Source of the DNA: a virus
Reading direction: 5' to 3' (one strand)
IMG/VR virus record: IMGVR_UViG_3300035670_001215
Coordinates: 1-24,161 of that record
Length of the DNA: 24,161 bases
This document shows positions 1,456-21,240 of this stretch, one piece after another. A model generated the notes under the pieces. It worked only from the letters and a program-made list of their open reading frames with translations, was not told the origin of the DNA and did not search any database. Both the position numbers and the translations under genes were made by a program. The first letter of the stretch is position 1. Every line of letters begins with the position of its first letter.

Positions 1456-1481
1456 AAAAAAAGAGACCCTTGTGAGGTCTC
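1456..1481 (-). terminator. Stem-loop plus T7 tract (module 1)
   Basis: On the minus strand GAGACC pairs with GGTCTC across a short loop, and seven T residues follow that run straight into the ATG of the 120-aa gene. It looks like an intrinsic terminator, but the promoter at 1507-1535 lies upstream of it, so it is in the leader of the next gene. Confidence 0.7.
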
Positions 1482-1506
1482 GTTACACTACTGTTGAGCT
1501 AATTAG

Positions 1507-1535
1507 AGTCTAGCAACCTATTTGTGATTTGACAA
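1507..1535 (-). promoter_or_regulatory. Sigma70-like promoter, module 1
   Basis: The minus strand shows TTGTCA (1535-1530), a 17-bp spacer and TAGACT (1512-1507). It would transcribe the small structural and lysis genes. The -35 lies inside the inverted repeat at 1517-1551 and overlaps the -35 region of the plus-strand promoter. Confidence 0.6.
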
Positions 1536-1551
1536 GAAATTGACAAATAGG
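1517..1551. promoter_or_regulatory. Operator-like inverted repeat between divergent promoters
   Basis: CCTATTTGT (1517-1525) and ACAAATAGG (1543-1551) are perfect 9-bp inverted arms 17 bp apart. A direct repeat TTGACA-AGAAA-TTGACA (1529-1545) lies at the inner edge. The arms straddle the -35 regions of both the leftward and rightward promoters, so one bound regulator could control both. The regulator is not identified. Confidence 0.5.
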
Positions 1552-1559
1552 ACTATAAT
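1529..1559 (+). promoter_or_regulatory. Plus-strand promoter for the 51-aa membrane gene
   Basis: A perfect -10 TATAAT lies at 1554-1559. The best -35 is TTGACA at 1529-1534, which gives a long 19-bp spacer. The only rightward gene that follows starts at 1581. Confidence 0.55.
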
Positions 1560-1580
1560 GGTAGGCAGGAAGGAAGGAAT

Positions 1581-1736
1581 ATGATTCTCGCAGTTTTTTG
1601 GGGACTAGTCTTATTTTTTGTTGTTCTACCAATAGCTTTTTATATTGTTTTTGCCATAGTTGGCACTATCATCTTTTCTCTTGGCGATTTTGTGAACTGG
1701 CTCGGTCGATTGCGCTCTGCCCCATCACATAAGTAG
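1581..1736 (+). CDS. Plus-strand small membrane protein, 51 aa (moron-like)
   Basis: A plus-strand ORF runs from ATG 1581 to TAG 1736, preceded by a strong purine-rich ribosome site (AGGAAGGAAGGAAT) and a TATAAT promoter. Residues ~3-36 are almost all hydrophobic (FWGLVLFFVVLPIAFYIVF, then AIVGTIIFSL), enough for one long or two short membrane segments, and the tail is short and basic (NWLGRLRSAPSHK). It converges on the minus-strand internal virion gene and overlaps its 3' end by 68 bp. A lone gene of opposite strand with its own promoter is the arrangement called a moron. Such membrane proteins often act in superinfection exclusion or as antiholins, but nothing in the sequence settles the role here. 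Confidence 0.6.
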   Translation: MILAVFWGLVLFFVVLPIAFYIVFAIVGTIIFSLGDFVNWLGRLRSAPSHK

Positions 1737-3423: not shown

Positions 3424-3425
3424 AT

Positions 3426-4619: not shown

Positions 4620-4633
4620 ATTTCCTTTACTTT

Positions 4634-6247: not shown

Positions 6248-7357
6248 TTAATAGACGTAAGCTAGCGAGCTACAGAATGAATGACCACCTAGAGAAGTTG
6301 ATGCTGATGGGATGGTTGTTCCAGACAATGAACAAGCAACTATTCTTATTACCCCACTTCCACCACTTCCACCAACACCACTAGCTCCATTTGCTCCAGC
6401 TCCTCCAGATGCAGTTACTAGTGAAGTGCCAATACTAATTGAGTTGCCAACTAATAATATGGAACCACCAGCTCCTCCTCCCTCACCATATGGAGAATCA
6501 CCAGCAACAGCATTCTGCCCATTGGCATTTAATGACCCAGTAACAGTAATTGAATTTGAAAACACAACAATTATTCCTCCACCATACCCCTCAACAGCAT
6601 TGGTGGTAAAAGTGTTATTTCTAGTACCACCTTCACCACCAGCTCCGCCAAATGTCATTGTTGCTAAATCAGCAGAACTAGATATTGCCCCACCAACTCC
6701 TCCAGCACCACCATGTAGACCTGTGCCTGTAGTTCCAGCTGTTCCATTGCCTCCACCTCCTCCAGCTGCTGCTGCAAGACCAATATCTCCAGCTCCTCCA
6801 GTTCCTCCGCCACCACCATTGCCCTGCGCAGATGTTGTGCGAGCTAGATCATGGCTAGTTGTTCCTTCACCCCTTCTGCCAGTAAGTTGTTGATCAGAAC
6901 CACCACCAGCACCCCTATATCCTTTTCCTGACAGATTAACAGTTCCACTTATACTCACACTACCATTACAAAGAATGGGGATAATTCCGCCCACGTTTCC
7001 ATCCCAAGCCTTGCCAGTTAGAGTTCCTGCTAGATTTGCTCCAGAGTATTGTGGCATCACAATCACTTGTGCCTGCTCATTTCCAGAGTCTGTGTAGGTG
7101 TAGCTTAGAGGCAACACTGTGGTAATTGTTCCAGTTGTATATGAGGCAATGACATTATGTTCATATTTACCAACATTAGACCCACCTCTTGATTGGTGAA
7201 TGAAGATATGTTGACCAGCAGAAAAAGAAGCATTGGTAGCAGTTAAGCTGGTGCTTCCAGCAGTACCTGAACAACTTGAGTCATATGGGGCAAACGTAGT
7301 TGTCCCTGGAGCCCATGTCCCAGCTGCACCACTGCCGAAGTTTAAGAATGTTGCCAT
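6248..7357 (-). CDS. Polyglycine-rich receptor-binding-type protein, 369 aa
   Basis: The N-terminal ~140 residues are beta-rich, Ser/Thr/Gly-rich and look like a fold that mounts on the virion. Residues ~150-330 contain several glycine runs (GNGGGGGTGGAGD, AAAAGGGGGNGTAG, GLHGGAGGVGG, GEGGGAGGSIL) of the kind that build polyglycine-II sandwiches, as in the T4-type gp38 adhesin. The end is SGVIRIVACSLSG followed by a short tail with a cysteine. The likely role is an adhesin at the tail tip or on fibres, determining host range; this is an inference from composition. The start ATG 7357 overlaps the TAA of the preceding gene (TAATG) and has AGAGGAAG upstream. Confidence 0.68.
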   Translation of the reverse strand: MATFLNFGSGAAGTWAPGTTTFAPYDSSCSGTAGSTSLTATNASFSAGQHIFIHQSRGGSNVGKYEHNVIASYTTGTITTVLPLSYTYTDSGNEQAQVIVMPQYSGANLAGTLTGKAWDGNVGGIIPILCNGSVSISGTVNLSGKGYRGAGGGSDQQLTGRRGEGTTSHDLARTTSAQGNGGGGGTGGAGDIGLAAAAGGGGGNGTAGTTGTGLHGGAGGVGGAISSSADLATMTFGGAGGEGGTRNNTFTTNAVEGYGGGIIVVFSNSITVTGSLNANGQNAVAGDSPYGEGGGAGGSILLVGNSISIGTSLVTASGGAGANGASGVGGSGGSGVIRIVACSLSGTTIPSASTSLGGHSFCSSLAYVY

Positions 7358-7659: not shown

Positions 7660-8225
7660 GCCATTAGTTGAATTGTTAGGTTGGCTCCAGCAACCGTACT
7701 TCCTACTTGATCTACAGCTGGTCTAAGTAAGTAACCAGCAGTTAAACTAGCCGTGTCGAAAGATGTCGTAGTGCCTGTTTTCGCTGACACAGCAATGGTT
7801 GGTCTATTGGTGGTTGATGTGTTCCAGAGAGATGTCCATGTGGCTCCACTATCTGCTGAATATTCAATATCAACAATTATGCTGGAACCCGTGGGTGCAG
7901 TCTTGACTACCGCCACTGCTTTAGACACGGTTTGGTTGGTGTTCACATACACCCAGGGTCCAGCATCAGAGGAGGTTACAAGACTTCCAGTCACAATCCA
8001 AACATAGCCTTTAGCTATAGCTTTAGAATTAACACCATCATGGTCATGTCCTGTTGAGGTGTTGAATGAGAGTTTTGATTCAACAATAGCAGCAGAACTA
8101 GCTATGTTTGCATTGGAAATAGAACCATTAAATTCATTGAATACAGCGTCAAAAGTGCTGTTTAAGTCTGTGTAGGTAACATTCTCGTTGTCTGCCCAAG
8201 TCTTTGGTTTTGTGATAACTGCCAT
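7656..8225 (-). CDS. Tail-fibre-like protein, 189 aa
   Basis: The N-terminus (KTWADNENVTYTDLNSTFDAV) matches the opening pattern of many short phage fibre proteins that attach to the tail. Residues ~38-75 (SSAAIVESKLSF, then TGHDHDGVNSKAI) hold the His-rich turn often seen before the fibre shaft. The C-terminal ~110 residues are Thr/Val/Ser-rich beta structure that could be the trimeric tip. It follows a promoter/stem-loop module and has a ribosome site (AAAGGAACT) before ATG 8225. The likely role is a small fibre or spike involved in adsorption. It is shorter than typical fibres, so it may be only one component. Confidence 0.72.
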   Translation of the reverse strand: MAVITKPKTWADNENVTYTDLNSTFDAVFNEFNGSISNANIASSAAIVESKLSFNTSTGHDHDGVNSKAIAKGYVWIVTGSLVTSSDAGPWVYVNTNQTVSKAVAVVKTAPTGSSIIVDIEYSADSGATWTSLWNTSTTNRPTIAVSAKTGTTTSFDTASLTAGYLLRPAVDQVGSTVAGANLTIQLMA

Positions 8226-8239: not shown

Positions 8240-8264
8240 AAAAAAGGCTCCATTAAAAGGAGCC
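8240..8264 (-). terminator. Stem-loop plus T6 tract (module 2)
   Basis: The minus strand reads GGCTCC, loop TTTTAAT, GGAGCC, then TTTTTT. The 6-bp stem is perfect. A separate ribosome site (AAAGGAAC) lies between the T-tract and the fibre-like start, so the hairpin is in that gene's leader. Confidence 0.72.
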
Positions 8265-8286
8265 CGTAAACTGTTGAGTTGACTCT

Positions 8287-8315
8287 AGTGTAAAAGCCAA
8301 ACTATGGGGTGTCAA
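8287..8315 (-). promoter_or_regulatory. Sigma70-like promoter, module 2
   Basis: The minus strand has TTGACA (8315-8310), a 17-bp spacer and TACACT (8292-8287), just after the stop of the nozzle gene and about 22 nt before the stem-loop. It is expected to transcribe the fibre and internal virion genes. Confidence 0.65.
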
Positions 8316-8316
8316 A

Positions 8317-9882
8317 TTATTTAGTTTCCCGTAGTTTGAAATTCACATCGAACGTATTAACAATAACTTCGTTTGTCTCAGAACAACGCAGAGACATCTT
8401 GACTGACTTGCCAGTTATGGTTCCACCGCCATCATCAAAATACCACCTGTCAGAGAGGGTTTCAGAACCACCAAGCCTATTGGCTCCAGTTGGTCCAAGA
8501 TAGAAATCTCCAGTTGGTCCAAGTGTTGAACCAGAACCAGATAGGTTAAATGTTTTGTGAAGTGCATATGGAGAGCCATCAACAGAAGAATATACCAATA
8601 TGTCCATGTCTCCCTGAGATGGAGCATAGATGTTCCCGTAGCCGTATTTCTTCCATCTATCTGGGTAGCCATAGTTGTCTAGTTTTCCATCCCATCTACA
8701 GCTAATTGGGTCTCCCAGATCATCATGTCCAGCATGTTTGTAAACTCCACCAGAAGTAGCATCAGCCAGATATAGATCAACAGAACCGCTCTGAAGGTAG
8801 GTGAGCATAACTGATGGTGTCCAGCCAGTGCCCTCATACACAGTCCATGCCTCTTGGTTTACCCTTCTTGAAGCCCTAATGTCATAGACAAGCACCAAGT
8901 TGTTGGTTGTTCCAGAGCCTGTAGGAATGGCGAAATATACCTTGTCATTAAATGACATAGCCACAGCCTTTTGGAGTTGTGCTGGATTAACTGTGCCTAG
9001 AATCTCTGGAATATGAGTAGAGATAATGTTCTTTCTGAAGGCATCAAAATCTGTCTGGTAAATTCTTCTGATATATCCCTGGTCATCAATAAACCACCAC
9101 TCGTCTCCCACCTTACATCCGCCCCTAGGAGAGAGTGTACCCACTGCCTCATCAGGGTTGGCAATATTAGAAGCTGAAGAAGTAATCTTCCAAGAGCTCA
9201 CGCCATACCCAGTAAGAAAAAGTGTTGAGCGTTCCTTTAAGATGATGAGCGCATCACCAATTTCTCCAAATGTGACACCTCTTCCACCAATACCAGGTAG
9301 ATCAATATAGTCAGTTCCAGTCCATGTGTCTGGGTTGCCAAAATTAGATATGTAGAGCCTGTTGCCATAAGTAGTTCCAGAGACTACTACCTCATTTATG
9401 GTGAACATGTGGTTATTCCACCACTTTAGAACATTACCATGTGGAACAGCTGCTCCTAGGTCAGTTAGGCTTGAATTAAGCGTAGTTGATGCTCTATCCC
9501 ACGAGTGTTGTTGGTTGTTTTTAGACGATACATACACCTTGTTCTTCAGAGGACAGTTCTCAATCCATAGGCTTTCTGCTGTGAATCCAGAATCTAAGGT
9601 GTCCCAGGTGGTAGAGTTTAGATAGCGAAGATTTGTTGATTCACCAATTATTAAGTCAGAAGAGCCACTATCTCTCACAAAACTACCCATGGAGTGAATA
9701 GATGTTGAGGCTAGAGCATTGCCAATTCTGGTTAAACCACCCCTGCTCCGTAGTTGTCCTTTGTATGACAAGTCCCAGTTTCTTATGTAAGAAGCACCAG
9801 TAACTGGAACTTCAGCATCAGATGATGCGTCTACTAAACCAATTGAATAATCTCTTTGGTAAACTGTTTTGAAGTTGCTCAT
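8317..9882 (-). CDS. Beta-propeller tail nozzle protein, 521 aa
   Basis: The sequence is a string of short beta strands ending in W, Y or D-turns (GNVLKWWNNHMFTIN, NRLYISNFGNPDTW, GDALIILKERSTLFLTG, NDKVYFAIPTG). This is the repeating-blade pattern of tail proteins of the T7 gp12 / P22 gp10 kind, which form the nozzle under the adaptor in short-tailed phages. The N-terminus (SYIRNWDLSYKGQLRSRGGL) is the usual opening of this class. Length fits the class. The start overlaps the stop of the adaptor gene (TATGA) and has no ribosome site, so translation is coupled and the two products probably assemble next to each other. Confidence 0.8.
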   Translation of the reverse strand: MSNFKTVYQRDYSIGLVDASSDAEVPVTGASYIRNWDLSYKGQLRSRGGLTRIGNALASTSIHSMGSFVRDSGSSDLIIGESTNLRYLNSTTWDTLDSGFTAESLWIENCPLKNKVYVSSKNNQQHSWDRASTTLNSSLTDLGAAVPHGNVLKWWNNHMFTINEVVVSGTTYGNRLYISNFGNPDTWTGTDYIDLPGIGGRGVTFGEIGDALIILKERSTLFLTGYGVSSWKITSSASNIANPDEAVGTLSPRGGCKVGDEWWFIDDQGYIRRIYQTDFDAFRKNIISTHIPEILGTVNPAQLQKAVAMSFNDKVYFAIPTGSGTTNNLVLVYDIRASRRVNQEAWTVYEGTGWTPSVMLTYLQSGSVDLYLADATSGGVYKHAGHDDLGDPISCRWDGKLDNYGYPDRWKKYGYGNIYAPSQGDMDILVYSSVDGSPYALHKTFNLSGSGSTLGPTGDFYLGPTGANRLGGSETLSDRWYFDDGGGTITGKSVKMSLRCSETNEVIVNTFDVNFKLRETK

Positions 9883-10559
9883 AGTGTGTCTGCGTAGCTG
9901 CTATATAAATCACTTCCCTCTGTCAAAATAACATTTGCTGGCTCATCTTCGTTACGAACAACTATATTGTCTAAGAATTTGTTTACAGCCATTTCAAACC
10001 GAACCCTCATTCTTTCAGCAGCCACATGTTCATCGTTTTGATCTAGATAGTTGGCATAGGCTAGGTATTTAAGCTTCCGCTGTAATCCTCTTGGAATTGA
10101 TGGCTCACCAGTATCTTCTATCTCTGGCACTAGATAGGAATACAATACTTTCAAGTTATTATCTCCAGATGAGGTGGGAACAGGCTGAAGACCAATTGAG
10201 TTACCAATCATGTAGTATTTTGGCTCACTAGTTGAATACCCATTGTCTGAGTTTGAGTATGTGGGCATCATTCCAATATTTTGAAGAGGTCTTACTTTTA
10301 CCCATCTACCGTCATTATTTAACTCTACCTGAATAAGTTTCACAAAATCAGATGGAAGAGCGTACTCTGTCTGTCCAGCAATTGTTGAAGTAGTAACTAC
10401 TTTGGTGAAATAGTCTGGTCTTACCCTCAAAATTTCATCAACAACATCTTCATATGCTTCCTGAAGCCAAGTGCCAATACCAGAATCTGAAACTTCAGAG
10501 CCCTTGCCTGCTGGTCCGACCATGTTTTTGAAATCAATAATAAGTTCTGCGAGTGTCAT
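9879..10559 (-). CDS. Head-to-tail adaptor protein, 226 aa
   Basis: The N-terminal helical part (LAELIIDFKNMVGPAGKG, then IGTWLQEAYEDVVDEILRVR) is followed by a strand-rich section starting with TEYALPSDFVKLIQVE. 'YALP-DF-k-i--v' followed by a helical C-terminus (QRKLKYLAYANYLDQNDEHV) is the pattern of podovirus adaptor proteins (P22 gp4 / T7 gp11-like function), which sit under the portal. ATG 10559 is chosen. Extending to GTG 10601 would translate through the stem-loop and its T-tract, which is not credible. The ribosome site is GTGGAA. The adaptor directly precedes the nozzle gene, as in other short-tailed phages. Confidence 0.78.
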   Translation of the reverse strand: MTLAELIIDFKNMVGPAGKGSEVSDSGIGTWLQEAYEDVVDEILRVRPDYFTKVVTTSTIAGQTEYALPSDFVKLIQVELNNDGRWVKVRPLQNIGMMPTYSNSDNGYSTSEPKYYMIGNSIGLQPVPTSSGDNNLKVLYSYLVPEIEDTGEPSIPRGLQRKLKYLAYANYLDQNDEHVAAERMRVRFEMAVNKFLDNIVVRNEDEPANVILTEGSDLYSSYADTL

Positions 10560-10572: not shown

Positions 10573-10594
10573 AAAAAAGGCTCCCGAAGGAGCC
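10573..10594 (-). terminator. Stem-loop with UUCG loop plus T6 tract (module 3)
   Basis: The minus strand reads GGCTCC-TTCG-GGAGCC-TTTTTT, a perfect stem closed by C(UUCG)G, a very stable tetraloop. It is nearly the same stem as module 2 and precedes the adaptor gene by about 14 nt. Confidence 0.75.
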
Positions 10595-10618
10595 CGTACA
10601 CTTTTTGCGACTACTCAT

Positions 10619-10647
10619 ACTCTACCCATGTGACCAGTTACTGTCAA
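10619..10647 (-). promoter_or_regulatory. Sigma70-like promoter, module 3
   Basis: The minus strand has TTGACA (10647-10642), a 17-bp spacer and TAGAGT (10624-10619). The TGA inside the -35 is the stop codon of the spike-like gene. The stem-loop starts about 24 nt downstream. Confidence 0.62.
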
Positions 10648-12332
10648 ACTTCTTGCCAGCCAGTCTCTCTGCTTTCCGCCTCACTCCAGTCTGTATCTGC
10701 GACTGCGCTTGATGACCAGCCTGTTTGTGTGGTACGTGGGTCAGACCACCTATATACTACCGTCACATCTTGCGATAATTGAGTAAATTGAAGTACCCCA
10801 ACATCAACATCAAAAACTGCTCCAGTACCAACGCTTATTGTTTCTGAAAATACTCCAAACTCTAGAGAATCAGCATCTACTGATGTAGTCACCCCATCTC
10901 CAGTTGTTACTGATACATCGGTTATATTAAAATCAGTTCCAACCAATGGGTCTTCAGCACTAACTCCAGCACCCTCAATGATTGCTGCATCTGGATTTGC
11001 TATTGTTGTTGTTTCAATGGTTGGAGCAACAGAAACCCCAGTCCCAGCAGTAATTAGCGGATTTGGGTTTGTTGTTGTGATTGAATCAATATTGAGAACA
11101 ACAGATATACCATCTCCAACGGTGGTGGAAAAAGAAGAAGAAACAAAACTAGCTGATGAAACAGTGTCTGTGAGAGATACATTACGAATTGCAGTTATTA
11201 CTACATCTGGATTTGACCAAGATAGTGACTGAACGGTATCGGGGAAAATTACTTTTTCTGATTTATAGGCATCTGGACCAACAACAGTTACCCCAGTTAT
11301 TGTGTCGTGTGCAATTAAGCTAAACAACCAACCAGTATTAGACCCTCCATCAACAGAATCAAAAGCAGTCCAGACAGAAGTTCCGCCTCCTGCTGTTGAA
11401 TTAGTAATTTCTAAATATTCACAGTCAACTTGTCCATCTGGCTTAGATAAAGTGAAGTTAGAAGCACCAGAAAGAGGAATCTTATCTAGAATAATTGGGT
11501 CATCACTCGTACCTATTGCATCAAAACTCTCTACTGTTTGTGTTGTTCCACTTTCAATCTGTAGGGTAAGACCAGCGTCTATCTTAATTTCATTAAAAGT
11601 ATTTGATTCATATATCTTATATACTCCAGTGCCAGTTCCGCTAAACCAGACATTGTAGTAATTTTTACCACCACCACGAAATGCTTTTGCTGTTGCTGTT
11701 GAATCTGTAAATTTAATTGTTGATGTGTCTGGATATATGGTCACATTATCCCCCCAGTCATCAATAAACATTCCATAATCACTTCCTGTGATGGTCCATG
11801 TTCCTGAACCCATATGAATATTGACTGAGGCATCTCCACTCTCAAAATAAAATCCTTTAACCGCAGTTAAGTTATAATCATTAGCATAAAAAGTTGAATC
11901 ACCAATATCAATAAGTCCACTACAATTTATATTGTCTTGCAGTGTATATTCACCATTTTCACCATAAAAACTGATGCTTGGCAAGGTGACACCATTTGTT
12001 GTTATTGTTAATCCAGTAGATGTTCCATAGAAAGTTAAAAACTTTGGTGTGAAAGTAATTCCAGATTCAAGATAGATTGAGCCATACACAAACATCCCAC
12101 TGGTTCCAGTAAGTGTGTATGTGTGTCCAGAGTTTAGTGTTAGATTTTTAGCATTTACATTAGACAGCCCAAGTGTGATTGTTCCACCGCTACCAAATCC
12201 AGAATTTGAGTCTATATAAACGTCATCTGCACTAGTTGGGATTGATGCTCCGCTACTACCACCGCTAGAAGTAGACCATTTGGAAGTACTGGACCAAGTT
12301 CCAGTTCCTCCAACCCAGTATCTATCAGCCAT
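10644..12332 (-). CDS. Beta-rich tailspike-like protein with 24-residue repeats, 562 aa
   Basis: The N-terminus (RYWVGGTGTWSSTSKWSTSS) is a W-V-G-G-T-G-x-W module known from phage and bacterial surface-type proteins. Residues ~40-300 show the regular short-strand and Asn/Gly-turn pattern of a right-handed beta-helix. Residues ~406-525 are five tandem 24-residue units, each opening G-x-G-(V/I/A), which look like a beta-solenoid or triple-stranded stalk. The last ~37 residues are rich in Trp/Ser/Asp (TGWSSSAVADTDWSEAES). The likely role is a virion appendage that binds or degrades surface glycans; no catalytic residues can be assigned. TTAGGATGAT precedes ATG 12332. Confidence 0.7.
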   Translation of the reverse strand: MADRYWVGGTGTWSSTSKWSTSSGGSSGASIPTSADDVYIDSNSGFGSGGTITLGLSNVNAKNLTLNSGHTYTLTGTSGMFVYGSIYLESGITFTPKFLTFYGTSTGLTITTNGVTLPSISFYGENGEYTLQDNINCSGLIDIGDSTFYANDYNLTAVKGFYFESGDASVNIHMGSGTWTITGSDYGMFIDDWGDNVTIYPDTSTIKFTDSTATAKAFRGGGKNYYNVWFSGTGTGVYKIYESNTFNEIKIDAGLTLQIESGTTQTVESFDAIGTSDDPIILDKIPLSGASNFTLSKPDGQVDCEYLEITNSTAGGGTSVWTAFDSVDGGSNTGWLFSLIAHDTITGVTVVGPDAYKSEKVIFPDTVQSLSWSNPDVVITAIRNVSLTDTVSSASFVSSSFSTTVGDGISVVLNIDSITTTNPNPLITAGTGVSVAPTIETTTIANPDAAIIEGAGVSAEDPLVGTDFNITDVSVTTGDGVTTSVDADSLEFGVFSETISVGTGAVFDVDVGVLQFTQLSQDVTVVYRWSDPRTTQTGWSSSAVADTDWSEAESRETGWQEV

Positions 12333-12333
12333 A

Positions 12334-12756
12334 TCATCCTAAGTATAGAATGCCATCTGCATCCCAAGTTATAGTAAAGTCACCATTACTTGAGGTTTTA
12401 TCACTTCCAAAATCTTTGTAGGCAATTAGTAAGTCTGTTGCAGCTGTGCCAGTTGATTTATAGATAACAGCCCCTCGTGCAGTCATAGATGTTGATGTCC
12501 AAGTGACATCATCAGCATCAAAAACTGCCCTATTATTTGTGTTGTCTTGGGTAATGGTTTTATTAGCTAGTGTTTCTCCACCAGTAGTATATCCAGAGCT
12601 GGATACTTCATTGGTTACATCAGCCATGTCCTCATGTGTGTCTTGGTCTGGGGTATAGGAAGATGTTACTAAAGCTACCTTAATGGTATCAGTATCTAGG
12701 TCAATAGACCCATTAGCAATGTTTTTTTTGAATGAGTTGTAAATTAGACTTGCCAT
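12334..12756 (-). CDS. Conserved phage structural-type protein, 140 aa
   Basis: The sequence resembles a widespread family of small phage proteins located near head-tail and tail genes. Its marks are IKVALVTSSYTPDQDTHED, VTNEVSSSGYTTGGETLANK, NNRAVFDADDVTWTS and a closing TITWDADGILYL. The fold appears all-beta. The family is usually left as hypothetical, and a decoration, neck or spike-associated role is plausible from position just before the spike-like gene (1-bp gap). AGGAGC lies between the module 4 stem-loop and ATG 12756, so this gene has its own ribosome site and is the first of a transcription unit. Confidence 0.78.
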   Translation of the reverse strand: MASLIYNSFKKNIANGSIDLDTDTIKVALVTSSYTPDQDTHEDMADVTNEVSSSGYTTGGETLANKTITQDNTNNRAVFDADDVTWTSTSMTARGAVIYKSTGTAATDLLIAYKDFGSDKTSSNGDFTITWDADGILYLG

Positions 12757-12767: not shown

Positions 12768-12789
12768 AAAAAAAGACCCTAGATGGGTC
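12768..12789 (-). terminator. Stem-loop plus T7 tract (module 4)
   Basis: The minus strand reads GACCC, loop ATCTA, GGGTC, then seven T residues. At 5 bp the stem is the weakest of the six, but its spacing from the promoter and next gene matches the others. Confidence 0.62.
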
Positions 12790-12810
12790 CGTGTATTATT
12801 GGCTAATTGC

Positions 12811-12838
12811 AGTATAGCAATGCGAGTCAGCAAGTCAA
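12811..12838 (-). promoter_or_regulatory. Sigma70-like promoter, module 4
   Basis: The minus strand has TTGACT (12838-12833), a 16-bp spacer and TATACT (12816-12811). The -35 contains the TGA stop codon of the preceding 54-aa gene. The stem-loop begins about 21 nt downstream. Confidence 0.66.
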
Positions 12839-12999: not shown

Positions 13000-13327
13000 C
13001 TTCTAGTGCCTTTGCTTGGGTCTCGAATGATTTTGCCATAGACCTAAATTTAATGTACTTGTATATGCCAAATAGAGATGAGTCAGCCAGCCTGTAGCGA
13101 ATATCTCGCAACTTCATTAACTTATCCATGTCGCTGCCTTCTTGCTCATTTAGATAATCATTCACAAGTTTGAGTTGCTCTTTTTGTTTGGTTGTTGGTT
13201 GTTCAATGTGGAAGAATGACTCCAGCATTGGATTTGAATCAATACCTTCCTTGTTCATTACTGGTAATGGGTCAACTTTGTTCTGAACTATGGTTACTGC
13301 CCCATCCAATGGTGATGTGTCTGACAT
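12992..13327 (-). CDS. Unknown soluble protein, 111 aa
   Basis: The N-terminal ~45 residues look extended and proline-containing (TIVQNKVDPLPVMNKEG). The remainder is helical and charged (TTKQKEQLKLVNDYLNEQE, MDKLMKLRDIRYRLAD), ending in a helix with LFGIYKYIKFRSMAKSFETQ. No motif is recognised. The start overlaps the stop of the upstream glycosyltransferase by one base (TAATG), with AAAGGA as ribosome site. It sits at the end of the glycosylation cassette and could belong to it or be a minor virion protein; the sequence does not decide. Confidence 0.7.
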   Translation of the reverse strand: MSDTSPLDGAVTIVQNKVDPLPVMNKEGIDSNPMLESFFHIEQPTTKQKEQLKLVNDYLNEQEGSDMDKLMKLRDIRYRLADSSLFGIYKYIKFRSMAKSFETQAKALEDA

Positions 13328-14412
13328 TAGTGTCCTTTTGCTACAGAATTATACGCATTAAGCCAGTCATTTACACGTTTTTTAGAATCAAAGCCCATTT
13401 TGACCATTTTATGAGCTCTACCAGATAGGGTATCCCTCATTTTCTTGTCCTGAATGAGAGTTTCTAGCATATTTGAGAACTCAATAGGGTTTTTGTAGAG
13501 CGCAGCTGTGTCAGCAGTGGCTACGTTGTGGTATGGACCAATATCAGCCACTACCGATGCCACACCCATTGCACTAAATTCTAGAAATTTGATTGGTGAT
13601 TTATAGTGATTAAATGGCAGGTCAGCAAGTGGGATGATAGCTATGTCTAAGTTGAGACACATCATTCTGTAGGAATGCCCCTTAAAAGGAACCCAGTCGT
13701 GGACTTCTACTAAGTGTTTGTTGTGCGGTTCAATAAGTCCATCAAAAGAATTACCAGCTATAACCAGTGTGAACTGGTGTTTGTTCATAAGTCTGTTGAG
13801 CTGATCTTTTATGGTATGCCAGTCTTCATAGTGGCTGATGCCACCAGACCAGCCAATACGTAAGTTTCTGCTGTGAACAAACCTTGGCTTCCACCATCTT
13901 TCAAAATTTATTAGATTCGGAAGAATAGCCACATTATTGTTGTATGAGCGAGCATATTCAGCTAATTTTGGTGTGGTCACAGTTATTAGATTAGCGTTTC
14001 TCATTCCAAATATGTGTGTTTGCAGTCTAGCCCTGTTCTTCTTCACGTCTATGTTTACTCCGTCTTGCCACAGTTGAACTTTGGCATTTTTATCGTAGTA
14101 CTCATAGGTTCCATATTCTTCAAAGTGAGATGAGTAGGGTGAAATGATTTCTGTGTTGTCGTCTATGTCATAGACATATGGTTTATCTCTAAACTCTGGA
14201 ATGGTGCGAAGTTTTTGAAATCCAACTTCAGCTCCTGGTCTGATAACAAACAGGTCTGCTTCTGTCATCATTCTGGCAGACAGCTCTGGGTCGTCGTGTT
14301 GAGATAACACCTCAGCCCTAGAGTCTGAGTGTCTATTTATCATCTCGAATGGTTGTCTGATTCGATAGTGACCACAACCACCATCATCTACGGGTAGGCT
14401 AACTATTTTCAT
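13327..14412 (-). CDS. GT-B (family 4-like) glycosyltransferase, 361 aa
   Basis: The first ~170 residues give the N-terminal Rossmann domain (DGGCGHYRIRQPFEMI, then RPGAEVGFQKL), and residues ~185-350 the nucleotide-sugar domain, with LRIGWSGGISHYEDW, FTLVIAGNS and the donor-binding stretch SPIKFLEFSAMGVASVVADI. The last stretch is the E-x(4-7)-(E/G) signature region of GT4-type enzymes. It should transfer a sugar from a nucleotide donor to a glycan or protein; donor and acceptor are unknown. Its start overlaps the epimerase stop (ATGA), tying it to sugar-nucleotide synthesis. Length is normal for the fold. The target may be virion proteins or the host surface. Confidence 0.82.
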   Translation of the reverse strand: MKIVSLPVDDGGCGHYRIRQPFEMINRHSDSRAEVLSQHDDPELSARMMTEADLFVIRPGAEVGFQKLRTIPEFRDKPYVYDIDDNTEIISPYSSHFEEYGTYEYYDKNAKVQLWQDGVNIDVKKNRARLQTHIFGMRNANLITVTTPKLAEYARSYNNNVAILPNLINFERWWKPRFVHSRNLRIGWSGGISHYEDWHTIKDQLNRLMNKHQFTLVIAGNSFDGLIEPHNKHLVEVHDWVPFKGHSYRMMCLNLDIAIIPLADLPFNHYKSPIKFLEFSAMGVASVVADIGPYHNVATADTAALYKNPIEFSNMLETLIQDKKMRDTLSGRAHKMVKMGFDSKKRVNDWLNAYNSVAKGH

Positions 14413-15353
14413 GCTGTTCCCATCCAGTTATATAATTTTGTGAAACCGTCAGTTATGTCTGTTTTGCTTCGATAGTCATAGTGAGAGTTAAATTTCCCAC
14501 TAGAAATTAGTCTTGTGTGTACTCCAGATGGTTCTGCTGGCTGGTACTCAAAATCTGGTTCTATGCCTGCAATAGCACACACAGTTTTGGCTACATCAGT
14601 ACAGGACACTAGAGTATCTCCTGCGATGTTGACTGGACCATAGTAGTCTTTGTTAATAACTTGCCAAATCTTCTCAACCGCATCATCAATATACAGATAT
14701 TGTCTCTGTTGAGTGCCATCTCCCCAGATTTTCACTCTGTCTCCATCTTGTTTAGCATCCAACACTTTTTTGACTATGGCTGGTGGAAACTTTACTCTTT
14801 CACCTTCAAATTCTTGATATGGTCCATAGATGGTTCCAAAAATACCCACTCTCACATCAAGAGGTGATCTCTCTGAGAGCATGGTCATCATCAATTTGTC
14901 CCAACCATACATCTGGTCGGCTTGAGCAGGGAAAAGTATGTCCTCTGTTAGAAGTGTGGGAGAATTTTGTTGTTGAAGATGGGTAGGATAAATACAGGCT
15001 GAAGAAGCAAAAAACACTCTAGACACACCAATAGCCTCAGTTGCTCTTAGTATGTTAATGTTCATTTGCTGATTGTCTAGGTAGGGATAGTAGTCATTTT
15101 TGGTAAAGAATCCAACTCCACCCATATTGGCAGCTAGATGGATTACCACATCTGCCCCCCAAATAGCTTCTTGAGTCTGGTTGTAGTCTCTTATGTCAGC
15201 GTTGAATACTTCATCTGCCATAGAGTAGAGATCGGCTCTAATATCTGTCCAGTTGTTGTCAACTGCCACTACCCTGTGTGGGGTATGGTGTTTTAAGAAT
15301 GTGATAAGGTGTGAACCAATAAAGCCACTAGCCCCAGTTACAACTATGTCCAT
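14409..15353 (-). CDS. NDP-sugar epimerase, GDP-mannose 3,5-epimerase-like, 314 aa
   Basis: This is an extended short-chain dehydrogenase. GASGFIG (7-13) is the NAD-binding loop, SSACIYP (117-123) and YGWDK (Tyr149, Lys153) form the active site, and KIWGDGTQQRQYLYIDD is the substrate loop. The pattern (A-N/D-MGGVGF, ASSACIYP, IYGP, a Lys in VKFPPA at 188) follows plant-type GDP-mannose 3,5-epimerase, including the Cys120/Lys188 acid-base pair that family uses to invert C3 and C5 and make GDP-L-galactose. GDP-fucose synthase and other epimerases are close alternatives. AAGGAGC precedes ATG 15353. It lies between two glycosyltransferases with 4-10 bp overlaps, so it probably supplies their donor. 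Confidence 0.82.
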   Translation of the reverse strand: MDIVVTGASGFIGSHLITFLKHHTPHRVVAVDNNWTDIRADLYSMADEVFNADIRDYNQTQEAIWGADVVIHLAANMGGVGFFTKNDYYPYLDNQQMNINILRATEAIGVSRVFFASSACIYPTHLQQQNSPTLLTEDILFPAQADQMYGWDKLMMTMLSERSPLDVRVGIFGTIYGPYQEFEGERVKFPPAIVKKVLDAKQDGDRVKIWGDGTQQRQYLYIDDAVEKIWQVINKDYYGPVNIAGDTLVSCTDVAKTVCAIAGIEPDFEYQPAEPSGVHTRLISSGKFNSHYDYRSKTDITDGFTKLYNWMGTA

Positions 15354-15991
15354 AAACTGCTCCTTTCTTCATAGAGTCTGGTATCTTCCTGTACTTTTTC
15401 TCTTGTCTTTGCATGGGTGGCATCTGGCGACTGGAGACCATATGCTCTAGCGAAATGCTCTACAACACTATCTAAACAAGGTCTGAAAACACCTCTAAAT
15501 TGTGCTGTTTTTATAAACTCAGCATCTGTGTAGTTGTGAGAGTAACCCTCATATAAAACTGGATATGTCCTGTCAAATGTACCGCTGTTGGTACGAATAT
15601 ATTTGCCTCTGACTAAGTAGTGAGTGGCATGATCTCCAGTCAACACTTCTTGGTTGTGAAGGTCGTTTGTCCCAACCACCATAGTATTGCCAACCATCTC
15701 ATCTATGGCTATTTCCTCCCAACCAGGTGTAAATCGTATGTCGTCTGCACCAACAAAAAACAGGTCAGAATCCATTACCTCCCATGCTGAGTTAATTGCT
15801 CCTGCATAAGTCTTAGATCGGTGGTTAATCACTCTGACAGCGGTGGTCTTTGCAGCTTCTTCTCTAGAGAGCCCGTCTTCTTCTTCTAAAATAAGTACCA
15901 CAGTAGCTCTTGGGGTTGACTCCTGGATATGAGCTACCAACTCAACCAGTTTTTCTCCCCTACCGAATGTTGGAATGTATATATCGAGCAT
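15344..15991 (-). CDS. GT-A (family 2-like) glycosyltransferase, 215 aa
   Basis: This enzyme opens with LDIYIPTFGRGEKL, the usual beta-1/loop of GT2-type transferases that binds the nucleotide. Residues ~75-86 (SDLFFVGADDIRF) carry the acidic DxD-like metal/nucleotide motif, followed by FTPGWEEIAIDEM. A later YTDAEF, with Asp and Glu, may give the catalytic base. At 215 residues it is a single catalytic domain without membrane anchors. It overlaps the GT-B gene upstream by 32 bp and the epimerase downstream by 10 bp, an unusually tight coupling. The ribosome site AGAGGAAC lies before ATG 15991. Donor and acceptor are unknown. Confidence 0.78.
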   Translation of the reverse strand: MLDIYIPTFGRGEKLVELVAHIQESTPRATVVLILEEEDGLSREEAAKTTAVRVINHRSKTYAGAINSAWEVMDSDLFFVGADDIRFTPGWEEIAIDEMVGNTMVVGTNDLHNQEVLTGDHATHYLVRGKYIRTNSGTFDRTYPVLYEGYSHNYTDAEFIKTAQFRGVFRPCLDSVVEHFARAYGLQSPDATHAKTREKVQEDTRLYEERSSLWT

Positions 15992-16805
15992 AGAGTTCCT
16001 CTATCTTTTCAGCCATGTAGCTTAATGTGTACGGAGTTATATCTGATGGAACGGGAAGTACGTCTTGATCTAGAATTGAGCCAGACTCATTGACAGTAAA
16101 TACCATACCTGGCTTCCCACACAACCAACCTTCAATAGTTGTTCTCCCAAGCATCACTGAGGCAGTCATATCTACTCTTTGGGTAATAAGTTCTATTGAT
16201 CTCATCTCTGGGAGGGCAATAACATTCTTACTTTTAATATCTTGGTTTCTTCCAACTAAAATGAGGTTAATTTGGTCTTTGTATGCCATATCAACAAGAG
16301 CACCTATTGCCCTCTTTCTCAGATAGTCATTTGGTCCCACAAATAAGACTGTTTTTCTGCTGTCTTTAGCGTATTTAGTTGGGAAAAATCTAGACTCATC
16401 AACTCCATTAAATATGACTGATGATGATGTGAGAACATCTTTGAACTTCTCTTGGATACTTGGTCTAACACAGATATGATGGACAATATTTTTGGCTGTC
16501 ACTGGGTATTCTAGGTCTGTGAAGAGTTCTGAGTGGATGGTTTGAATAACTGGAACATCTAGAATTGAGCCAATCATAGCTGATTGCGCCTGATGAGCAT
16601 GAACAACATCAAATCCATCATCTAAGTCATCTAACAACTCAACACCAGAGGAGACAATCTCCTTAAGCGGTTCACCTCGTATTACAGAGGTGGAGTAAAT
16701 AGCCACTGTGTGTCCAAAGCTAACCTGTTTTTTAGCTAAATCACTCACATAGAGCTCTGCTCCAGTAAGCGAACCAATCTGAGGAATAATGTGTAAAATT
16801 ACCAT
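15960..16805 (-). CDS. Short GT-B glycosyltransferase, 281 aa
   Basis: The N-terminal domain starts VILHIIPQIGSLTGAELYVS, the G-G-AE pattern typical of GT4 enzymes, with GFDVVHAHQAQSAMIG as the next strand-helix. The C-terminal domain holds KTVLFVGPNDYLRKR, INLILVGRNQDI and TTIEGWLCGKPGMVFTVNES, equivalent to the donor-binding E-x(n)-G-x-P region. At 281 residues it is shorter than the usual ~370, so loops or parts of the N-domain are trimmed. ATG 16805 is chosen because TTG 16823 lies within the upstream gene and adds an unlikely six residues; ATG overlaps the upstream TAA region. It is the first enzyme of the glycosylation cassette. Confidence 0.76.
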   Translation of the reverse strand: MVILHIIPQIGSLTGAELYVSDLAKKQVSFGHTVAIYSTSVIRGEPLKEIVSSGVELLDDLDDGFDVVHAHQAQSAMIGSILDVPVIQTIHSELFTDLEYPVTAKNIVHHICVRPSIQEKFKDVLTSSSVIFNGVDESRFFPTKYAKDSRKTVLFVGPNDYLRKRAIGALVDMAYKDQINLILVGRNQDIKSKNVIALPEMRSIELITQRVDMTASVMLGRTTIEGWLCGKPGMVFTVNESGSILDQDVLPVPSDITPYTLSYMAEKIEELYARYIHSNIR

Positions 16806-17143
16806 TTTTCTACAATCCACCAAGGTCTTACTAGGTCATGGTGCATAGCTCGTTTGTCATACATCCAATCTGGACCATAAATGGCTGAGAGCGTCTTGTT
16901 TACGAAGTCGTAAATAAGCGGAGATGGAAATCTAACTACTTCTCGATGCACTTTTGACTTAGAACCCTTCTCAAACACACCAGATGCTCTTAAGCCCTGG
17001 TAGTAAGACATGATTTTTGGGTCACTGTAGGTGCGATAGATGATTTTTCTAGCTTTCTCATCTAGTGAGTCGGCAAGAGCGGTTAAGGTAAGACGTAGTT
17101 TCTCGTCGTCAAAAGCAACTAGCTCGAAGTCTATTTTGGTCAT
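16799..17143 (-). CDS. Unknown protein heading glycosylation operon, 114 aa
   Basis: This basic, soluble protein begins TKIDFELVAFDDEKLRLTLT and has helical segments up to about residue 60, followed by a Trp/Tyr-rich end (YGPDWMYDKRAMHHDLVRPW, closing IVEKW). No domain is recognised. ATG 17143 directly follows the T7 tract of module 5; an in-frame GTG twelve bases further upstream would lie in the hairpin itself and is rejected. Its stop overlaps the next gene's start. It could be a head-completion protein, since it follows the capsid gene, or an acceptor or accessory protein for glycosylation. Neither can be shown here. Confidence 0.68.
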   Translation of the reverse strand: MTKIDFELVAFDDEKLRLTLTALADSLDEKARKIIYRTYSDPKIMSYYQGLRASGVFEKGSKSKVHREVVRFPSPLIYDFVNKTLSAIYGPDWMYDKRAMHHDLVRPWWIVEKW

Positions 17144-17168
17144 AAAAAAAGACACCCCGAAAGGTGTC
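17144..17168 (-). terminator. Stem-loop plus T7 tract (module 5)
   Basis: The minus strand reads GACACC-TTTCGG-GGTGTC-TTTTTTT and the last T is followed directly by the ATG of the 114-aa gene. Stem and T-tract match those of module 6. Confidence 0.74.
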
Positions 17169-17185
17169 GTACTTTTTGAACTAGC

Positions 17186-17207
17186 TTATTATTTCACATG
17201 TTGTCAA
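17186..17207 (-). promoter_or_regulatory. Possible promoter, module 5
   Basis: A consensus TTGACA (17207-17202) is present, but no good -10 lies 16-18 bp downstream. An extended -10 of the form TGA-AATAAT (ending at 17188) fits the promoter-to-hairpin distance seen in the other modules. This is the weakest of the set. Confidence 0.4.
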
Positions 17208-17212: not shown

Positions 17213-17239
17213 AAGAGAGGAGTAAGCCATTCCTCTCTT
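17213..17239 (-). terminator. Second intrinsic terminator after capsid gene
   Basis: The minus strand has a perfect 9-bp stem, AAGAGAGGA with TCCTCTCTT, loop ATGGCTTAC, then TTT G. It is the second of two terminators between the capsid gene and the glycosylation operon. Confidence 0.72.
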
Positions 17240-17270: not shown

Positions 17271-17297
17271 AAAAACCCCCTCCGTTAAGAAGGGGGT
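17271..17297 (-). terminator. Strong intrinsic terminator after capsid gene
   Basis: The minus strand has ACCCCCTTC, loop TTAAC, GGAGGGGGT and then a T5 tract, about 25 nt after the capsid stop. This GC-rich stem is the best terminator in the window and isolates the head operon. Confidence 0.85.
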
Positions 17298-17321
17298 AAT
17301 GGGTTTCAGTAAATCTGAAGA

Positions 17322-18218: not shown

Positions 18219-18241
18219 ATGTGGTAATCAACAATCCTGCC

Positions 18242-18922
18242 TTAGCCTTTTGGAGAAAAATGCTTCAGATATGCTCTGAGTGCAGACTTGTCTCCAGACA
18301 TAGCTGCTGTCTTTAGGTCGTCAGCCCCAGTTGTTGTGGAGCCACTACCGTCAGATGCCTCAGATTTTGTTCCTTGCGTTTTTGAGAGAGCTTGTTGGAC
18401 TTTCCAGTTGTCTAGTTCTTTCTCGAACTTGAGTTTGTAGAGTATTTCTGGGTCAGTTGAAAGACGTGATTCTCTATAAAATTCAAGAATTTCTTGACGT
18501 GAGAATTTAGGTCTTCCATCTTTTCCATCATACTTAGACTCAAGTTTTGAGAAGGTCTTATCTAACTGTGCGTCTTCTTCTCTTCTGCGAAGCTCTGCTT
18601 CCTGCTCCTCTCGAGTGACGAACCCGAGATTTTTTAACGTCTCTTTGACGATTTTTGTTTGTTCGTCTTCTGGAGTTGGTGGCGTTGCTTTAGCTTTGAG
18701 TTCTTGGAGCTCTCGTTCTAACTCCTCGGCTTTTTTGGCTTTCTCGTTGACCTCTTGAAATCTTTTATACGGAACCACTTGTTCAGAAAGGTCCTTCCCT
18801 TCTGAGGTGGTTTGAGTCTCTTGGGAAGTTTCAGCTTCTTTTGGAGCCTCTGTGTTTGTTTCTGCTGACGATTCAGGGGCAGTCACTTCTGCCTGTGTTA
18901 CGTCTTGTGTTATGTCTTCCAT
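18242..18922 (-). CDS. Scaffolding protein, 226 aa
   Basis: This acidic, Glu/Thr/Ser-rich protein has an unstructured N-terminus (~1-48), a linker VVPYKRFQEVNEKAKKAEEL of the type found in many phage scaffolds, and long coiled-coil regions (ELERELQELKAK, then TREEQEAELRRREEDA). The C-terminus is a small basic helical piece (KSALRAYLKHFSPKG) of the sort that binds capsid shells. It lies between portal and major capsid genes, the usual place for a scaffold that directs procapsid assembly and leaves before packaging. AAGGA precedes ATG 18922. No protease motif is seen, so removal would be by exit or by another enzyme. Confidence 0.85.
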   Translation of the reverse strand: MEDITQDVTQAEVTAPESSAETNTEAPKEAETSQETQTTSEGKDLSEQVVPYKRFQEVNEKAKKAEELERELQELKAKATPPTPEDEQTKIVKETLKNLGFVTREEQEAELRRREEDAQLDKTFSKLESKYDGKDGRPKFSRQEILEFYRESRLSTDPEILYKLKFEKELDNWKVQQALSKTQGTKSEASDGSGSTTTGADDLKTAAMSGDKSALRAYLKHFSPKG

Positions 18923-18951
18923 AACATCCTTTCTTTGCCCTACATGTTTAA

Positions 18952-19046
18952 CGTCTAACGAAGACGACTGGGCGATATTTCTAAGGGTTGCCCCTTAGTA
19001 GGAGCTGTCAGCCTGCCCGAATGACAGCTCGTACCAAGAGACAACC
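18952..19046 (-). other. Structured RNA spacer between portal and scaffold
   Basis: The 141-nt gap between portal and scaffold is unusually long for this compact operon and folds strongly on the transcribed strand. It has a 9-bp perfect stem (GAGCTGTCA with TGACAGCTC, 19030-19002), a 7-bp stem with GCAA loop (CTAAGGG with CCCTTAG, 18998-18981) and a 5-bp stem (18966-18952). GGTTG (19046-19042) can also pair with CAACC (18990-18986), which competes with the second stem. No T-tracts follow and no ORF is evident, so this is more likely a translational or processing element than a terminator. Confidence 0.6.
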
Positions 19047-19063
19047 TATGTACTTGTTAAAGA

Positions 19064-20944
19064 TCATTTGTTGAACGGTCTTCCAGCTGTCTGAGCCACT
19101 TGGTCTCTAAACATCTGAATTACCCTTCTCTGTTCTGGGGTTAATGACTCTTCTGATTCAAGGAAGTAGTCAATGTAATCCAAGAACTCTGGTGAAGCGA
19201 CATTAGGTAGAATTGGTTGCTCTCCCTGTAGGAGTGAGCGGAGTGCTGCTATAGCCTGTTGTGTGCCAGCTTGCTGAGTTGGCTCTCTAGAAGCCTCAGC
19301 CTGGTTGTTCATCATCTGTTTTTGCTGTTCTAGTTCTTGTTCTCGTTCTTTCTCTTTCTTTTCCTGAACACGTCTGACCACATCAGCCACATTACCTACT
19401 TCGTAGAACTCTAGGAGAGTTTGTTCATCAATAGCCTGCATTTGGAAGAGTTCAGCTGCCTTCTTCTGTCTAGCTTCAGGGGTATTAGCCAGCCAAGAGG
19501 TGATTTTGACATCAACCAAGGCTTTCTTGGGTAAGACAACTGCTCCCTCAGGAGCTTCAACAGCTGCTTCCTCACCAATTACCTTGATGTACTCTCTCTG
19601 ACCTGTGGAAGAGAGCGGTGTGATCTCTCTGGCAAACTGATATTTCTCAGCAGCTAGAGATAAGATGTATTCAAATACTTCTTCTAGGAAATCTTCTGTG
19701 TTTTCAACAATTTCAGAGAGATTATTGGCATCACCTGCCTGGAGTGCCTCTACAGCGTCGCCAGAACGTGCTCCAGGTGGGATTCTGCCCATAGAAGCCT
19801 CATGGAATCCGCCAATATCTTCAATATATGTGTCAAATGAATCCTTCAAATTAAATGCGATTGGGGACAATGGAGCAATATTGCCCTGTTTAACCTCATA
19901 TCCTCGCTTTTTCTGGATGATTTGCCCATTATCATTATTGATGATCTTCACTCCAGACCCAATATCGGCAATCCACTTGCCTCTGTTCATTATGTGGTTC
20001 CACTCAGCAATGTGAGACATAACTCTGTTGAGCTCTTTGTTTGGTGAGATGAGGTTTTTTACCCATCCCTGACCAAAGAAAGAACGTGGGTTAATGTCAC
20101 ATCTGAGAACGAAGAACGGCAATCTAGATAAATCTGTTTTTTCATGGCGGATACAGCGGTTATCAGCAATAGTAGTTACCCAAATCTCATGCTTGTTTTC
20201 TTTAGTCCACTCTTTATGCCAGACTTCTTTCACAATTACTGAGCCATCATCTTCTTTGGCAACAAAATTACCCATCTCATAGCGTAAAAAACGCTCCTTT
20301 AGGGATGAAGCAGATAGCTTCTTGTCTCCTTTTAAGAGAGCTACTTCTTTTTGGTCATATTTGGGGTCATGTTTTAGGTCTTCTATGTTGCGTCGTACTT
20401 CTAGCGTTACACGTCTAGCCTCAACTTCATTTCTTGACTTGAAATCCCAGAATAAATCATAGGGGTCAATGTCATTTATGGTTATTTTCCCCTTACCACT
20501 CATGTCTTCAGCGTCTGGGTCCCACAATATCTGCCAGTAGCCAACGGAGTACTTTAGTGCGTCCCAAACAGTCCCCTTCAACTTGTAGCGCATGTCTTCT
20601 GAGTCGTGGATATAGTCTAAAAACTTATTTTGTCCAGAAACATTAGCTAATGCCTCTGCTTTTTCTGGCATCCAATGGGGAGTAACTTCAGCTTTCGGTC
20701 TGTTTCTGAGGGTGTAGTTTCTAACGGCTCGAAGGGTAGTGTAGATTTTATTGATGACTACTTTTGGTCTGCCATCTGATTTTTTAGAGACAATTTGGTT
20801 TGTTTCTCTGTCATAGGTGGCATAGTGGAGTCCAGATACCCACAGATCATATTGAAACCATTTCCAGTCAGTCTTCTTTCGAGCGTCCTCGTCTTCTTGG
20901 GTCCAACGAATAATCTTTTGGAGCTCTTCTGGTTTAATTTTCAT
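19064..20944 (-). CDS. Portal protein, P22-like, 626 aa
   Basis: A large protein between terminase and scaffold. The N-terminal region (TDWKWFQYDLWVSGLHYATY, then RPKVVINKIYTTLRAVRN) and the wing (KITINDIDPYDLFWD) have the features of P22-like portals, which form the dodecameric DNA gate. The crown end is rich in Glu/Gln/Lys (KEKEREQELEQQKQMMNNQA), which may be an extended C-terminal barrel or a coiled coil. Length is typical (P22 portal is 725, others ~600). GGAGGA precedes ATG 20944, which overlaps the small membrane gene by 11 bp. Portal plus large terminase form the packaging motor. Confidence 0.87.
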   Translation of the reverse strand: MKIKPEELQKIIRWTQEDEDARKKTDWKWFQYDLWVSGLHYATYDRETNQIVSKKSDGRPKVVINKIYTTLRAVRNYTLRNRPKAEVTPHWMPEKAEALANVSGQNKFLDYIHDSEDMRYKLKGTVWDALKYSVGYWQILWDPDAEDMSGKGKITINDIDPYDLFWDFKSRNEVEARRVTLEVRRNIEDLKHDPKYDQKEVALLKGDKKLSASSLKERFLRYEMGNFVAKEDDGSVIVKEVWHKEWTKENKHEIWVTTIADNRCIRHEKTDLSRLPFFVLRCDINPRSFFGQGWVKNLISPNKELNRVMSHIAEWNHIMNRGKWIADIGSGVKIINNDNGQIIQKKRGYEVKQGNIAPLSPIAFNLKDSFDTYIEDIGGFHEASMGRIPPGARSGDAVEALQAGDANNLSEIVENTEDFLEEVFEYILSLAAEKYQFAREITPLSSTGQREYIKVIGEEAAVEAPEGAVVLPKKALVDVKITSWLANTPEARQKKAAELFQMQAIDEQTLLEFYEVGNVADVVRRVQEKKEKEREQELEQQKQMMNNQAEASREPTQQAGTQQAIAALRSLLQGEQPILPNVASPEFLDYIDYFLESEESLTPEQRRVIQMFRDQVAQTAGRPFNK

Positions 20945-21161
20945 CTAATAGCTCCTCCATAGCTTCTTCAATTGGGATTTGTGTTTCTTCTTTTTTTTCT
21001 TCTTCTGTTTCTTTTTCTGGTTGGAGTGATTTGAACTCAACTAAGTCTTTTGCCATGATTCGGTCTAATAACTGTTGACGCTCTCTGTTGAACTGAGCCT
21101 CTCGATATGCGATGTAGGCAAGCAGTAAGACAGTAATGATGGTGAGTAGAATTTCAGACAT
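20934..21161 (-). CDS. Small single-span membrane protein, 75 aa
   Basis: Residues ~2-18 (SEILLTIITVLLLAYIAYR) form one N-terminal membrane segment, followed by a charged coiled-coil helix (NRERQQLLDRIMAKDLVEFK) and a very acidic tail (EKETEEEKKEETQ, EEAMEELLDEN). It is short, has no cysteine and no recognised family. Its start (ATG 21161) directly follows the T7 tract of module 6; the in-frame GTG upstream lies in the hairpin and is not chosen. It is coupled to the portal gene by an 11-bp overlap. A membrane-tethered assembly factor or portal nucleator is one guess, not a finding. Confidence 0.68.
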   Translation of the reverse strand: MSEILLTIITVLLLAYIAYREAQFNRERQQLLDRIMAKDLVEFKSLQPEKETEEEKKEETQIPIEEAMEELLDEN

Positions 21162-21187
21162 AAAAAAAGACACCCTTGTGGGGTGTC
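21162..21187 (-). terminator. Stem-loop plus T7 tract (module 6)
   Basis: The minus strand reads GACACCC-CACAA-GGGTGTC-TTTTTTT-ATG, with a perfect 7-bp stem. The stem sequence and the GTGTC-T7-ATG junction are shared with module 5. Confidence 0.76.
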
Positions 21188-21212
21188 CGTGTTTCTATTG
21201 AACTGCCTGAAG

Positions 21213-21240
21213 TCTATACTCAAGTTTCTTCGTTTGTCAA
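21213..21240 (-). promoter_or_regulatory. Sigma70-like promoter, module 6
   Basis: The minus strand has TTGACA (21240-21235), a 16-bp spacer and TATAGA (21218-21213). The -35 and spacer lie in the 3' end of the 83-aa gene. The stem-loop starts about 25 nt downstream. This is the head operon promoter. Confidence 0.68.

Follow-up and report, generated by a model that had tools for sequence, protein, structure and literature searches.

Promoter-terminator modules repeated before the late genes of an uncultured phage: candidate minimal attenuators in which the RNA 5' end may act as antiterminator

The window, that is, the whole stretch of DNA analysed here, is a 24.2-kb IMG/VR virus record whose late genes lie on the minus strand. 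These encode the large terminase, the portal, a scaffold-like protein, the major capsid protein and structural and tail proteins, and glycosyltransferases are also encoded on this strand. No close relative of the window was found among 50,697 phage records by megablast. Its portal had only distant matches, to Arthrobacter and Cellulosimicrobium phages (22-25%), and the portal of one of its relatives lacked any match to cultured phages. Matches to MAGs were scattered, may be mis-binned and pointed to no one host.

Six hairpins followed by six or seven T residues were found where the preliminary description had placed them, all on the minus strand and all in the order promoter, hairpin, T-tract and gene, the promoters being predicted as sigma70-type. 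Module 1 (1456-1535) has a -35 TTGTCA (1535-1530) and a -10 TAGACT (1512-1507), with the transcriptional start site (TSS) predicted at about 1500, followed by a stem-loop (1481-1463), a T7 tract (1462-1456) and the ATG at 1455 of the gene 1093-1455. Module 2 (8240-8315) contains TTGACA (8315-8310) and TACACT (8292-8287), a predicted TSS at about 8280, a stem-loop (8265-8246), T6 (8245-8240) and an ATG at 8225 with an AAGGA Shine-Dalgarno (SD) sequence. In Module 3 (10573-10647) the promoter elements are TTGACA (10647-10642) and TAGAGT (10624-10619), the TSS is predicted at about 10612, and the stem-loop (10595-10579) and T6 (10578-10573) precede the ATG at 10559 of a tail gene (9879-10559). 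Module 4 (12768-12838) shows TTGACT (12838-12833), TATACT (12816-12811), a predicted TSS at about 12804, a stem-loop (12790-12775), T7 (12774-12768) and an ATG at 12756 with an AGGAG SD. Module 6 (21162-21240), at the terminase/portal joint, consists of TTGACA (21240-21235), TAGACT (21216-21211), a predicted TSS at about 21204, a stem-loop (21188-21169) and T7 (21168-21162) before the ATG at 21161. Direct reading of the sequence bore out the proposal that in Modules 3 and 4 the -35 holds the TGA of the preceding ORF, which in the case of Module 4 is short (12999-12835, 54 aa).

The promoter of Module 5 (17144-17196) had to be redrawn. For the TTGACA at 17207 no suitably spaced -10 exists, but a usable extended -10 promoter is predicted, TGAAATAAT (17196-17188, hexamer 17193-17188), which has the same placement relative to the start-site motif described below as the promoters of the other modules. 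Its TSS is predicted at about 17181 and is followed by a stem-loop (17168-17151), T7 (17150-17144) and the ATG at 17143. Upstream of this module, an ordinary terminator with no promoter in front of it follows the major capsid gene (17275-17297, minus strand), and a second hairpin with a 12-bp stem and TTT (17213-17239, minus strand) lies between that terminator and Module 5.

In the six modules of the window the G+C-rich stem starts 13-19 nt after the predicted TSS and the last T of the tract falls at +37 to +45. Under strict criteria (a hairpin, a promoter score of at least 9 and an ORF start within 34 nt) a scan returned five modules in the window; Module 5 escaped it, since its extended -10 promoter has no -35. 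In 150 dinucleotide shuffles the same scan gave a mean of 0.007 modules and a maximum of 1, and the mean fell to 0.000 at a promoter score of at least 10. The number of modules in the window is far above chance (5 observed, 0.007 expected). An Rfam covariance-model search gave no match at the modules.

Uncultured relatives were gathered by scans with the capsid, terminase and portal proteins. The same modules recurred in relatives with a capsid identity of about 57% or more, whereas only 8 modules were found in 1,566 kb of distant capsid relatives. The terminase/portal joint carried a module in 13 of 13 close loci. In a wider set of 71 non-redundant loci with a terminase score of at least 280 bits, a promoter leading into a terminator was present at this joint in 31; the controls gave 0 of 75 for a region 2 kb farther downstream and 1 of 84 for the opposite strand. 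Other joints of the window were also occupied in relatives: the one after the capsid gene, as in Module 5 (L029 and L064), the one before the gene 1093-1455, as in Module 1 (L143), and the one before the homologue of the tail gene 9879-10559, as in Module 3 (L148). In the relative G008 (27.8 kb) five modules were detected by the strict scan and a sixth by a thermodynamic finder, and the scan listed just six strong terminators across the entire record. Stems that are long or bulged escape the weaker hairpin/promoter scan, and the thermodynamic finder recovered more modules.

Stem sequences at homologous joints were unrelated among relatives, and therefore position and structure, not sequence, appear to have been kept. 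The near-identical stem pairs reported earlier for Modules 2/3 and 5/6 are indeed alike, but the likeness stops at the stem, while the loops and leaders differ. Duplication or recombination at the joints, which had been suggested from these pairs, was not supported, because the likeness is confined to the stem arms and modules at the same joints in relatives have stems of unrelated sequence.

As to the strength of the terminators, the module hairpins scored at least as high as the terminators of phage RB49 in our own implementation of a d'Aubenton-Carafa-type score. When hairpins were sought downstream of promoters with no T-tract required, 17 of 20 strong ones had at least six T residues in the next 8 nt. 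The modules have the form of intrinsic terminators, with a U-tract directly after a G+C-rich hairpin. A strong promoter lay upstream of the terminator in 13 inner-clade and 20 outer-group cases, and downstream of it in one inner and no outer case (33 vs 1).

This order bears on the PeSL cassettes, which the preliminary description had likened to the modules and which were reportedly described in T4-type phages by Arbiol in 2010 and Comeau in 2014. In 140 kb scanned of RB49, a phage reported to carry PeSLs, strong sigma70 promoters close to a terminator stood downstream of it in 12 cases and upstream in one. Since the terminator comes first there (12 vs 1) and the promoter comes first here (33 vs 1), the PeSL layout is reversed, and on this order the assignment of the modules to the PeSLs was rejected. 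Both systems join a sigma70-like promoter and a stem-loop terminator, its strength here judged by score, at a gene boundary. PeSLs serve early genes in hyperplastic regions and their sequence-similar copies recombine. The modules described here, in contrast, precede the portal, tail and other late genes, the likeness among their copies is limited to the stem arms of two pairs, and the stems of orthologous modules are unrelated.

Nearly all modules of the inner clade carried a motif that lies around the predicted start site, 3-4 nt past the -10 (information of 5.13 bits at a width of 9, against a shuffled maximum of 4.53). The motifs were alike within one genome (AGYUCAA in the window, GUCUAAUUGAA in G008 and CUCUAGUAAUUUA in L148), and the predicted start sequences were of the AGYUCAA or GUCUAAU type, without a homopolymer. 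In G008 the start motif tracked the stem, GUCU occurring with AGAC, GACU with AGUC and GGCU with AGCC. A boxA-like reading of the CTCTT motifs was dropped, because the motif follows the stem and not a fixed consensus.

Scores between the 5' end of each transcript and the 5' arm of its terminator were compared with those of permuted module partners. The first ~14 nt of the transcript were complementary to the bottom 6 nt of their own terminator 5' arm (z = 7.5, p = 5e-5, n = 52), also when one module per genome was used (z = 6.1, n = 33). Nothing comparable was found between the 5' end and the 3' arm or the upper 5' arm, nor for the rest of the leader, and ordinary promoter-less terminators had no complementarity of this type (RB49, p = 0.996; other loci, p = 0.93). 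For the inner set, in which the complementarity was first noticed in G008 so that the hypothesis arose from the same data, p was 5e-5, and 0.004 without G008; the outer set alone gave p = 5e-5 with the first 18 nt. When the intermediates that precede the 3' arm were folded, the 5' end paired with the 5' arm in 45 of 51 modules, compared with 19.4 +/- 3.3 for shuffled leaders. In most folds of the outer group another small hairpin, P2, lies within this putative helix, termed P1. In the alignment of the G008 modules 97% of the P1 cells were paired, and any slide of the register destroyed the pairing, which was best at zero slide. One pair column of P1 in G008 contained U-A, A-U and G-C, and the covariation within this genome rests mainly on that pair. 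Seven modules found later served as the one genuine hold-out, of which three were paired against 1.3 expected, a result in the same direction and not significant alone.

P1 by itself would be weak in the inner clade, where it is predicted at -1 to -6 kcal/mol and the terminators at -9 to -16. A permutation restricted to the window was not significant for the complementarity between 5' end and 5' arm (p = 0.91), and P1 was present in the minimum-energy fold of Modules 1, 3 and 6 only (leader CUC with stem GAG, AGUC/GGCU and GUUC/GGAC, respectively). The window's own modules are therefore less certain than those of the group, and Modules 2, 4 and 5, whose minimum-energy folds lacked P1, may be plain terminators or may depend on a trans factor.

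The attenuation or antitermination reading offered in the preliminary description was strengthened by the terminator-like scores, the retention of the T-tracts and the complementarity of the transcript 5' end to the base of the terminator 5' arm, all of them computed from sequence. As the simplest interpretation we propose, with a probability of roughly 55%, that the modules are minimal transcription attenuators, each linked to its promoter, in which the RNA 5' end would be the antiterminator. Transcription from the sigma70-type promoter would run into an intrinsic terminator located between about +15 and +45. As the RNA emerges, its 5' end would pair with the lower 5' arm to form P1, which in many relatives would be capped by the extra hairpin P2. 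The target of P1 would be the bottom of the terminator stem, which has to close adjoining the U-tract; P1 would block the completion of the terminator beside this tract, and RNA polymerase would read into the late gene. If P1 fails or is displaced, an RNA of ~45 nt would be released. The balance may be shifted by a phage or host protein, by the speed of the polymerase or by NTP levels, or the module may give a fixed level of read-through. The evidence for mutually exclusive structures, which are predicted ones, is strong at the group level, and from them we infer an effect on transcription.

The main rival, which we hold to be unlikely, is that the late promoters are gated by a protein, a phage antiterminator loading at the promoter or start region, in which case the start motif would be its site and P1 would be secondary. 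The motif keeps a constant distance of 3-4 nt to the -10 and is alike among the modules of one genome, as such a site might be, and late genes under host-type promoters need some delay. The layout of a promoter, a terminator and a late gene is also that of lambdoid pR'-tR' with Q (PMC6606751) and of AlpA of Pseudomonas aeruginosa (PMC7969949), where the promoter leads straight into an intrinsic terminator ahead of late or lysis genes. Those systems, however, need protein binding between the -35 and the -10, where inspection by eye did not reveal a common spacer element in the modules, whose RNA appears instead to carry the competing pairing. Moreover, the covariation of the start motif with the stem, not expected of a site read by a protein, disfavours a fixed protein operator at the start site. 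Among 20 non-structural, early-side proteins from the fragmentary records of three relatives, Pfam recognised neither an antiterminator family nor an RNA polymerase of their own.

The modules could also be punctuation of dual use, without a switch, if the hairpin stopped RNA reading through from upstream and tolerated partial read-through from its own promoter. We regard this as quite unlikely. Other terminators are few in these genomes, as this explanation would have it, but a terminator placed before the promoter would insulate at no cost and yet the order is almost never reversed, and Module 5 keeps its own hairpin despite two further hairpins upstream. Pairing of the 5' end was likelier in module-started than in read-through RNA (0.63 vs 0.37), a difference that did not exceed the one seen when the upstream sequence was shuffled (0.37 vs 0.31, p = 0.11), and the complementarity between 5' end and 5' arm would be left unexplained. 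An origin-sensing terminator, in which the upstream RNA is selected to block the antiterminator so that transcripts from the own promoter pass and read-through stops, was not supported by the same comparison (p = 0.11). Least probable, indeed improbable in our judgement, is that the stem-loop protects the mRNA or shapes its translation, the hairpin and U-tract directly before the AUG replacing an SD. The ATG does stand 6-10 nt after the stem without an SD in Modules 1, 5 and 6 and in about half of the terminase-joint modules, while the capsid and several other genes of relatives have strong SDs; the T-tract, however, would be needless, nor would this explanation predict that the 5' end pairs with the 5' arm. 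Usual 5' mRNA protectors sit closer to the 5' end than 13-19 nt. Given this distance, which is greater still in the outer group, and the retention of the T-tract, pure protection, as suggested earlier, became less likely. The proposed attenuator switch might also affect translation.

The closest parallel to the proposed attenuator is pyrG of Bacillus subtilis, in which, as reportedly described by Meng, Turnbough and Switzer in 2004, untemplated G residues are added when CTP is low. Its promoter is said to be followed by a very short leader and, ahead of the gene, by a terminator, with whose 5' arm the very first nucleotides of the transcript pair as antiterminator. The modules share this pairing at the group level, and in the window in Modules 1, 3 and 6 only. 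They differ in that the pairing bases are encoded, with no G-run at the start site or tract for G slippage, and in that they serve phage late genes, in up to six copies per genome. The pyrG attenuator is cited in PMC4448216. There is a fair chance that the modules, as a variant of transcription attenuators, form a distinct class. Tentatively, and at somewhat less than even odds, this would be a new class of ~45 nt in which a genomically encoded 5' end is the antiterminator of a promoter-adjacent terminator, repeated as a standard unit at late-gene starts in a large group of uncultured phages, the stem evolving together with the 5' end.

Phage late genes that are transcribed from host-type promoters require a gate, and the known gates are dedicated proteins (Q, p7 and AlpA-like) or long RNAs such as put. 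In the present group the gate appears, from predicted pairing, to be an RNA switch of ~45 nt at the start of each transcript, kept in position and not in sequence across phages without a cultured relative. The 4-6 bp pairing is a simple and directly testable prediction, the modules could supply very small antitermination parts, and their signature offers a tool to find operon starts in uncultured phage genomes. The put RNA of HK022 (~70 nt), which has two stem-loops, binds RNA polymerase and acts at distant terminators (PMC9378689), is likewise encoded by a phage directly after a sigma70 promoter and influences termination in cis; the modules, in contrast, are ~45 nt long and contain the terminator.

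The two genes at window positions 12334-12756 and 10644-12332 were flanked by modules 4 (12768-12838) and 3 (10573-10647), minus-strand units in which a predicted promoter is followed by a hairpin, a T6-T7 tract and a gene. Homologues of both genes were nearly absent among the uncultured relatives, the sole one being weak and found in locus L021, which is consistent with the sequence at 10644-12756 being an exchangeable cassette with modules at both sides.

The ATG directly adjoined the T-tract at 1456-1462, 17144-17150 and 21162-21168, as it also did in modules of the relatives. Roughly half of the modules in the window and its relatives lacked a Shine-Dalgarno sequence between the hairpin and the start codon; strong Shine-Dalgarno sequences were present at many other genes of the relatives.

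The contig that carries locus L035, from a relative with 58% capsid identity, was assigned to the bin of a Candidatus Micrarchaeota MAG, possibly by mis-binning.

Glycosyltransferase genes, together with a sugar epimerase-like gene, formed a block (13327-16823) that separated the capsid region from the tail genes, with the same gene order in the related locus L029. The glycine-rich protein encoded at 6248-7357, which bears GGxGG-type repeats and looks structural, had no match in the Pfam search.

Finally, the palindrome GTTACGTAA occurred at five sites spaced 12-24 nt apart at 23813-23895 (six matches counted strand-wise, against 0.02 expected), at the 5'-end of the minus-strand ORF 23426-23818. 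This ORF gave no Pfam match, and by-eye comparison indicated an N-terminus like that of Phd/YefM-type DNA-binding antitoxins. The GTTACGTAA sites are likely to be an operator array.
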